DNA of 64,000 nucleotides from positions 17,895 through 81,894 of the forward strand of contig CAMBZE010000001.1 of the NCBI GenBank assembly GCA_945872425.1, in the 5' to 3' direction. The notes beneath the pieces are model-generated. The model was not told the DNA's origin. It searched no databases and saw only the letters and a list, made by a program, of their open reading frames with translations. The position numbers were made by a program, and so were the translations under genes. Positions 24,048 through 55,920 of this stretch are shown in pieces. Each line of letters begins with the position of its first letter. Positions within the stretch are counted from its first letter, which is position 1. This DNA is from Methylotenera oryzisoli (GTDB taxonomy: Bacteria; Pseudomonadota; Gammaproteobacteria; Burkholderiales; Methylophilaceae).

Positions 24048-24704
24048 TTATGCGTGCTCTAGCAACCATTGTCCCAAATTAGCAAAGTCATCAAATTGCT
24101 GCATCGGGTTAAAATGTTGCCATTGATCTGACGACTGCGCACCATACGTCACGCCAATAGCATTGACGCCTGCATTTTTCGCCATATGTAAATCATAACT
24201 CGTATCGCCAATCATTAAAGTACGTTCCGGCAATATCACTAAATCATCCATCAGCTCATCCAGCATTTGCGGATGAGGTTTTGAAAAGCACTCGTCCACA
24301 GTACGTGTTGCATGAAAATACCGAGCCAGCCCTGTATGTTCCAATGCTAAATTAAGACCACGCCTGCCCTTGCCAGTAGCCACTGCCAGCTTAAATCCAC
24401 GTCGATTCAGCTCAACAATAATCTCTGGCACCCCTGAAAACAACAAAATCTCACTCTCTCCGGCATAATAATTTGCGTTATATTGTGTAGCAAGCTCCCG
24501 TGCTTTTTCTACCGGAATATCTCCATATAAAGACTGAATAGATTCACGTAAACCCAAGCCAATAATTCCACGTGCGGCTTGCGGTGTCAGTGCGGGCAAC
24601 CCAACTTGTTCAGCTGCTTTTAAAATTGCATGGGTAATCATGCCCGTTGAGTCGGCTAAAGTGCCATCCCAATCCCACACGATTAAATCAAATTGCTTCG
24701 GCAT
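24048..24704 (-). CDS. gph: HAD-superfamily phosphatase, phosphoglycolate phosphatase-like
   Basis: Hydrolyses a small phosphomonoester, by family 2-phosphoglycolate formed in DNA repair. The 218-residue protein has the HAD motif I VWDWDGTLADST (nucleophile Asp), motif II LAVATGKGR, the motif III lysine in SKPHPQ and motif IV IGDTSYDLHMAKNAGV, with an alpha-helical cap between I and II. It lies between rluC and the Rieske gene. The substrate is uncertain since HAD subfamily IA members share all these motifs. Confidence 0.82.
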   Translation of the reverse strand: MPKQFDLIVWDWDGTLADSTGMITHAILKAAEQVGLPALTPQAARGIIGLGLRESIQSLYGDIPVEKARELATQYNANYYAGESEILLFSGVPEIIVELNRRGFKLAVATGKGRRGLNLALEHTGLARYFHATRTVDECFSKPHPQMLDELMDDLVILPERTLMIGDTSYDLHMAKNAGVNAIGVTYGAQSSDQWQHFNPMQQFDDFANLGQWLLEHA

Positions 24705-24726
24705 TCTTGAATGATTCTTTCTCTAG

Positions 24727-24816
24727 GGAAGTGCTTATTAAATGAGCGAGCGGAATAAAGTGCAAGGCGCACGGAACGCAGCAATTTGCCCGTGTAGCCA
24801 TTTAATCAGTGCTTCC
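24727..24816. mobile_element. 90-bp MITE-like element related to the 272-bp family
   Basis: Ends GGAAGTGCTTATTAAATG and CATTTAATCAGTGCTTCC are inverted copies of each other and match the termini of the 272-bp element seen at 35.4 and 55.6 kb. TAG flanks both sides. It overlaps the last five codons of rluC: GGAAGCACTGATTAA of the element is read as Gly-Ser-Thr-Asp-stop. Confidence 0.8.
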
Positions 24817-25827
24817 TAGTTTTTGTAAAAATTTATTTAACTCTGACGGCGTAGGCGCAATGAGTTCGAGCTTTTCATTCGTCAAAGGATGACGGATTTT
24901 CGTGACAGATGAATGTAAAAACATGCGTTTAAGGCCATGTTTAATCAAAGTCTTATTTAATGCGAAGTCCCCATATTTATCATCCCCGACAATAGGAAAA
25001 CCCAAATGTGCAAGCTGCACGCGCAGTTGATGCGTACGCCCCGTCACCAATTGCGCTTCAAGCAGGCTGAATTTACCTATCGCCGCATGATTGTAATTTT
25101 TAATCAAACGGAACATGGTTTCTGAAGTTTGACGCTCTCCAAACTTATCTTTTGCCGCATCAGTCACCACATTGACGCGACGCTCACCATTTGGCAGCAC
25201 ATATTTTTGCAAATCCAGCACCACACGTTTTTTAGGTTCCAGCCATTCGCCTTGCACCAGCATGATGTAACGTTTATCGGTTTGATTATTCCGAATCGCC
25301 TCGTGGAGAGCAACCAGCGCACTCCTCTTTTTAGCCAACATCAGCACGCCTGATGTTTCACGATCCAAACGATGAACCAATTCCAGAAACTTGGCTTTGG
25401 GGCGCTCCAAGCGCAACTGTTCAATCACACCACGGCTAATGCCACTGCCACCATGCACCGCAAAACCCGCTGCTTTATCTATCACCAGCATGGCATCATC
25501 TTCAAAAATAATCGCCTGCTCAAATTTTGAAGTAACAGGCGCAGCAGATTCCGGCTTATCAATAATCGTTGCGCGCGTGGGCGGCACCCTGACCACATCG
25601 CCTAAACTTAAACGAAAATCCGCATCAATGCGTTTTTTATTAACGCGGACTTCACCACTACGCAAAATCCGATACACATGGCTTTTGGGCACGCCTTTTA
25701 AGGTTTTGGTGAGAAAGTTGTCAACCCTCTGCCCCTCACTCGCCTCATCAACGGTCAAAAATGCAGCCGCTGCTTCACTGATTGTTGATACCTTATTGCT
25801 TTGATCTGGTGTAATTAAATTGTTCAT
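24802..25827 (-). CDS. rluC: 23S rRNA pseudouridine synthase RluC-like
   Basis: Pseudouridine synthase of the RluA branch modifying 23S rRNA (955/2504/2580 in E. coli). The 341-residue protein has an N-terminal S4 RNA-binding domain (about residues 31-85, RVDNFLTKTLKGVPKSHVYR) and a catalytic domain with LVHRLDRETSGVLMLAKK holding the catalytic Asp, and GRTHQLRVQLAHLGFPIVGDDKYG. Its extreme C-terminus (GSTD-stop) is encoded by the end of a MITE-like element, so the natural tail was replaced. It is the upstream gene of the sppA run on minus. Confidence 0.92.
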   Translation of the reverse strand: MNNLITPDQSNKVSTISEAAAAFLTVDEASEGQRVDNFLTKTLKGVPKSHVYRILRSGEVRVNKKRIDADFRLSLGDVVRVPPTRATIIDKPESAAPVTSKFEQAIIFEDDAMLVIDKAAGFAVHGGSGISRGVIEQLRLERPKAKFLELVHRLDRETSGVLMLAKKRSALVALHEAIRNNQTDKRYIMLVQGEWLEPKKRVVLDLQKYVLPNGERRVNVVTDAAKDKFGERQTSETMFRLIKNYNHAAIGKFSLLEAQLVTGRTHQLRVQLAHLGFPIVGDDKYGDFALNKTLIKHGLKRMFLHSSVTKIRHPLTNEKLELIAPTPSELNKFLQKLGSTD

Positions 25828-35421: not shown

Positions 35422-35693
35422 GGAAACACTGATTAAATCACCATGAGCCACGTTGCGAATAAATTTGTGATGATTGCGAGGCGTGCGACGCAGGTCGTAG
35501 TTATTCTACGAAGCCAAGGAACACACATACGTAAGCGCACAAATTTATCGCAACCCTGATGGGCACAGAGTTTGCGGGCGGTCTGCGGTGTTAGGCTCCT
35601 CGTCAAGGGAATAACCATTAACCTCGTCGCCTGTCTAGCATCCCATCCCGCAAACCTCTTGTGCGTGGTCATGAGGATTTAATCAGTGTTTCC
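35422..35693. mobile_element. 272-bp MITE-like element, copy 1
   Basis: The ends are GGAAACACTGATTAAATC and GATTTAATCAGTGTTTCC, perfect inverted repeats, flanked by TTAA on both sides (target duplication). The interior has secondary hairpins, for example GCGAATAAATTTGTG against CACAAATTTATCGC. Copy 2 at 55649-55920 has the same length and high identity. No transposase is encoded. The right TTAA contains the stop codon of the aldolase gene. Confidence 0.92.
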
Positions 35694-55648: not shown

Positions 55649-55920
55649 GGAAACACTGATTAAATCACCATGAGCCACGTTGCGAATAAATTTGTGATGA
55701 TTGCGAGGCGTGCGACGCAGGTCGTAGTTATTCTACGAAGCCAAGGAGCACAACAAAGCAAGCGCACAAATTTATCGCAACCCTGATTGGCACAGGGTTT
55801 GCGAGTGGTCTGAGGTGTTAGGCTCCTCGTCAAGGGAATAACCATTAACCTCGTCGCCTGCCTAGCATCCCATCCCGCAAACCTCATGTGCGTGGTCATG
55901 AGGATTTAATCAGTGCTTCC
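55649..55920. mobile_element. 272-bp MITE-like element, copy 2
   Basis: Same length and near-identical sequence to the element at 35422. The ends are GGAAACACTGATTAAATC and GATTTAATCAGTGCTTCC, flanked by CTAA on both sides. The right CTAA contains the stop codon (TAG) of the response-regulator gene. The internal ORF differs from copy 1 at several amino acids and is probably not a protein. Confidence 0.92.

Follow-up and report, generated by a model that had tools for sequence, protein, structure and literature searches.

The end of rluC was analysed within a 64,000-nucleotide stretch of DNA (the window) from a Methylotenera draft genome of 1.49 Mb in 81 contigs. Here, two minus-strand genes form a tight, co-directional pair. 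The upstream gene, rluC (24802..25827), codes for a 23S rRNA pseudouridine synthase of 341 amino acids with Pfam S4 and PseudoU_synth_2 domains. Its best NCBIfam match is RluC (1.8e-97), which stays under the cut-off of that model, and the match to the RluA subfamily is over the cut-off; the family match in the gene product stops at residue 338 of 341. The downstream gene encodes a HAD-family hydrolase (24048..24704; Pfam HAD_2). Between both lies an element of 90 bp that overlaps the end of rluC, with boundaries (24727-24816) as placed by the original prediction.

Alignment to four 143-bp copies, together with matches elsewhere in the genome, identified this sequence as a minus-strand copy of a class B miniature inverted-repeat transposable element (MITE). 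It is short and has no transposase gene, carries terminal inverted repeats, is flanked by a target duplication, and has dispersed sister copies; the ORF list contains no ORF of at least 60 amino acids in it. The left terminal repeat (24727..24744, plus strand), GGAAGTGCTTATTAAATG, is decayed, and the right one (24799..24816) reads GGAAGCACTGATTAAATG on the minus strand, so that the arms are imperfect, with 83% complementarity over 18 nt. The target duplication is CTAG, in line with the YTAR duplications of the sister copies, and occupies positions 24723..24726 on the left and 24816..24819 on the right. The right copy has one C in common with the repeat, which upon comparison with other ends corresponds to one base lost at the junction. 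The four 143-bp copies (contigs C14, C7, C31, and C29) differ from the 90-bp copy by one 53-bp gap located between AACGCAG direct repeats. Because of this single gap, the 90-bp copy is best regarded as an internal-deletion derivative of the 143-bp element.

On the minus strand, the end of rluC reads ...TTACAAAAACTA GGA AGC ACT GAT TAA ATGG..., and the ORF ends with LQKLGSTD-stop. The codons for GSTD and the TAA stop (24802..24816) fall wholly inside the right-hand terminal repeat, and the predicted protein tail is KFLQKL-GSTD. The translation and the element boundaries thus bear out the original proposal that the element supplies the last four residues and the stop codon of rluC, and the codons had been read correctly. 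Only the preceding Leu codon, CTA, has another source, namely the CTAG target. The junction is one G short: it consists of CTAG and GAAGC instead of CTAGGGAAGC, whereas at other ends YTAR is directly followed by GGAA. An intact junction, CTAG followed by GGAAGCACTGA, would encode L-G-K-H-TGA; with the G lost, it encodes L-G-S-T-D-TAA. The frame of rluC thus ends with GSTD-TAA rather than GKH-TGA because of this missing base. No other gene end among the element copies checked in this genome uses the GSTD frame, and the GSTD tail is a one-off caused by the base loss.

Comparison with 54 rluC loci from relatives, some of which represent the same species from two collections, revealed the empty site. 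None of these loci has a GSTD tail, so that the result named in advance by the original prediction as its refutation did not occur. After the conserved KF(L/V/I)xKL, the proteins of congeners end with LEKE, LES, LEP, LDA, LAQ, and similar short tails. If the flanks of the element are joined with one copy of CTAG, the resulting sequence, ...TTTTTACAAAAACTAGAGAAAGAATCATTCAAGAATGCC, follows TTTTTACTAAAGTTAGAGAAAGAGTAATTTGTAATGCC of congeners across the point of insertion; likewise, the joined flanks TTTTTACAAAAACTAGAGAAAGAATCATTC match TTTTTACTAAAGTTAGAGAAAGAGTAATTT of congeners there. The joined flanks translate into ...QKLEKES..., in agreement with the KLEKE-stop end of several congeners, and on this basis the element removed a short, variable, and non-conserved tail of RluC. 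LEKE occurs at the end of rluC in seven sampled congeners and is directly followed by TAA in six of the seven; the genome studied here has TCA at this place. As a consequence, the joined frame runs on past KLEKE as KLEKESFKNAEAI before a stop is reached, so that an ancestral end at KLEKE is not certain. The TCA may reflect decay of the old stop codon after the insertion. Alternatively, the ancestral frame may already have run on, as in one relative (L064) whose protein continues beyond KLEKE and ends with KLEKETLNNA. The old C-terminal codons GAG AAA GAA now survive solely as sequence ahead of the HAD gene and resemble a ribosome-binding site there. According to the flank comparison, the probable Shine-Dalgarno sequence of this gene, AGAAAGA, is former C-terminal coding sequence of rluC.

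The element belongs to a larger family in this genome. With up to two mismatches, the repeat pattern has 50 forward and 40 reverse matches in the whole genome, where its reversed form has 1 and 0, respectively, and a 161-base query matched 15 places. Exact YTAR+GGAARYRCTGATTWAWT ends occur 60 times, versus zero in the reversed-pattern control, which is far more than chance would produce. A family survey, which covered the stretches around element ends, found at least 36 paired copies that fall into three sequence classes, have the common end GGAARYRCTGATTWAWT, and occupy YTAR targets. The 4-bp flanks, chiefly TTAA, CTAA, CTAG, or TTAG, are identical in 25 of the 36 paired copies (TTAA in 17 of these). 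Copies measure 44-272 bp, mostly 272 bp (13 copies), 143, 167-170, 207, or 110 bp, and the smallest one consists of two ends only. Several apparent single ends (for example C64:2023, C49:8422, and C54:6757) probably are chance matches in coding sequence. At another site (L077:8414-9122; G000:C29:11913-12621), a conserved gene for a ParA-like ATPase lies exactly between two facing single ends flanked by TTAA, beside a 272-bp copy. This gene is oriented opposite to its neighbour in some congeners and colinear in others, making it a candidate for capture by, or inversion between, the ends. Two contig ends (G000:C14:1-420 and C26:21400-21777; L114 and L076) carry, apart from a few substitutions, the same beginning of a gene for a DinG-like helicase but differ in their repeat junctions, which may be due either to a strain mixture in the assembly or to recombination at the terminal repeat. 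A few copies of this family or of related ones also occur in some congeners. In two of the genomes (G021 and G007), further related MITE families have ends GTAGGYGCTGATTWA or GGAARYGCTGATTTATT and other interiors (L233, L234, L239, L243, and others).

The ends of IS5 from Escherichia coli also begin with GGAAG. The YTAR target of the family is that of the IS5 group, as IS5 of Escherichia coli likewise duplicates a 4-bp Py-T-A-Pu sequence (PMC5493358). IS5 differs in carrying its own transposase, whereas the copies described here lack one, and no parent element was found in the genomes searched. The draft genome itself contains no match to the Pfam family PF01609, and of the PF01609 loci in 40 congeners, 30 were scanned, none of which had the repeat as paired element ends.

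Most contacts of the copies with gene ends leave the protein as it was. In eight of the 36 paired copies and at four unpaired ends, the element starts directly after the TAA or TAG of a gene, and this stop codon is the TAR of the target. Since the target is duplicated, the gene had this stop codon before the element arrived, and its product stays the same; consistently, IscA and XerD, two of these cases, match their families up to the last residues. Within the window, two 272-bp class A sister elements on the plus strand show this arrangement: a class II aldolase-like gene has its stop codon at the right end of the first (35422..35693), and a gene for a LuxR-type response regulator has its own at the right end of the second (55649..55920), both genes being named by sequence inspection. 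Congeners provide three more cases (L228, L232, and L239). To obtain an expectation, YTAR sites were counted in approximately 300 kb around the copies, with stop codons and intergenic positions taken as harmless. By rough gene calls, stop codons make up 7-9% of the harmless sites, or perhaps up to 14% if many genes were missed. The observed 8 of 36 has P = 0.003-0.012 at 7-9%, 0.06 at 12%, and 0.12 at 14%. The enrichment is modest, hangs on these rough gene calls, and is suggestive only.

In other cases genes read into an element. An intact end closes two of the three entering frames within 13 bases, either by the TAR of the target or by a TGA at bases 9-11. In most class A and B ends the third frame stops a little further in; it is open in class C ends and in one class B end. 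The original prediction had raised the question of whether other copies also end genes with GSTD or a related tail. Two more do terminate genes, albeit with other residues. On contig C45, pgsA terminates with KLRKH within a 44-bp copy, compared to KLKRK or similar in congeners; this minimal copy (G000:C45:7237-7280; L082) comprises two terminal repeats and hardly any interior. A rhodanese gene (contig C26) ends with LPIVK-ETLIKSS, the congeners having IVKE, VKA, or similar ends, and its joined flanks read IVK-TAG. The genes rluC, pgsA, and the rhodanese gene enter the element in three different frames. A congener ORF (L231) also enters an end and terminates as RRRRVKEALIK.

Taken together, we consider it highly probable (approximately 0.93) that a MITE with an IS5-like target inserted near the end of rluC and now provides the last residues and the stop codon. 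According to this model, a non-autonomous MITE that recognizes YTAR and duplicates 4 bp entered rluC at a CTAG that lies three codons ahead of the probable former stop, and split the old end between K-L and E-K-E. RluC now stops inside the terminal repeat, as K-L-G-S-T-D-TAA, through the loss of the G, presumably in the course of these events. The old end, GAGAAAGAA, remains beside the HAD gene, for which it probably serves in ribosome binding. RluC tolerated the insertion, probably as a neutral change, because its last three to five residues are variable and outside the conserved domain, frames into the element soon reach a stop, and the start signals of the HAD gene were left in place.

A native origin of the GSTD tail, with a likeness to the repeat by chance or convergence, is extremely improbable. 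C-terminal tails of RluC do vary in the genus, but nothing else was found in its favour, and there is an exact 17-bp match to a repeat present tens of times in the genome, whose second arm follows at a distance of 54 nt. This explanation is also contradicted by the target duplication and by the flanks that rejoin to the sequence of congeners, as does the absence of the tail from all 54 loci. Alternatively, the insert might have been kept for regulation at the junction of the rluC-HAD pair, for example by an RNA hairpin that acts on termination or mRNA stability. The insert separates two co-directional genes, and its predicted fold is better than that of shuffled sequences (z = -2.7). However, such a fold is expected of any inverted-repeat element, the arms are decayed, a comparison of the window to Rfam gave no match, and the insertion is not conserved in relatives; retention for this purpose is thus very unlikely.

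The original prediction also suggested that the element end works as a portable gene terminus. If this were an evolved property, the repeat and its target would have been selected for stops in all frames and insertion just inside genes. The rapid stops in two frames, the stops a little further in for the third frame of most class A and B ends, and the four gene ends made of element sequence (three here and the congener ORF) are compatible with such selection, which nevertheless appears unlikely. The third frame is not closed in all ends, and copies on pre-existing stops or between genes outnumber those inside gene ends. Moreover, no special selection is needed as the target rule is common to ordinary IS5. 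Tolerance of insertion at gene ends is supported, but the frame in rluC is an accident of the lost base, and most gene-end contacts involve a pre-existing stop. YTAR preference followed by selection against gene damage explains the pattern. The same target rule turns TAA and TAG stops that follow a pyrimidine into natural harmless targets.

MITE-supplied C-termini are already on record. In Coxiella burnetii, QMITE1 and QMITE2 share 1-50 bp with functional genes at their 3' ends, and in one strain the final 33 residues of EnhC come from QMITE2; these are other repeats, and the parts of that report available to us describe no systematic position at stop codons (PMC5896051). The enterobacterial RU-1/RU-2 sequences, for example at ECA3499, are similarly fused to a gene 3' end where the native stop is gone and a new C-terminus has formed (PMC2759123). 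There, approximately 34 residues stem from a long internal frame, in contrast to four residues and an immediate stop in rluC. A literature search retrieved nothing relevant on MITEs in Methylotenera, on IS5 under the term YTAR, or on insertion within the stop codon. No paper on the stop-restoring effect of a YTAR target was found, although most subscription journals were outside the search, and newness is not claimed.

The rluC locus is a clear-cut instance of a protein C-terminus reset by a mobile element, and relatives show the empty site. A simple rule is also suggested: stop codons fall within a target centred on TA, and insertion can therefore be invisible to the gene. As the palindromic target contains TAA or TAG, insertion at a stop would restore it, and a stop inside the terminal repeat would save near misses. 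More tentatively, and with considerable doubt, YTAR-targeting elements may be stop-codon-neutral in general and build up at the ends of genes where genomes are streamlined, which would be a general way for them to spread without harm and to cause slight changes of C-termini. Thousands of IS5-like insertions are available for testing the stop-codon rule.
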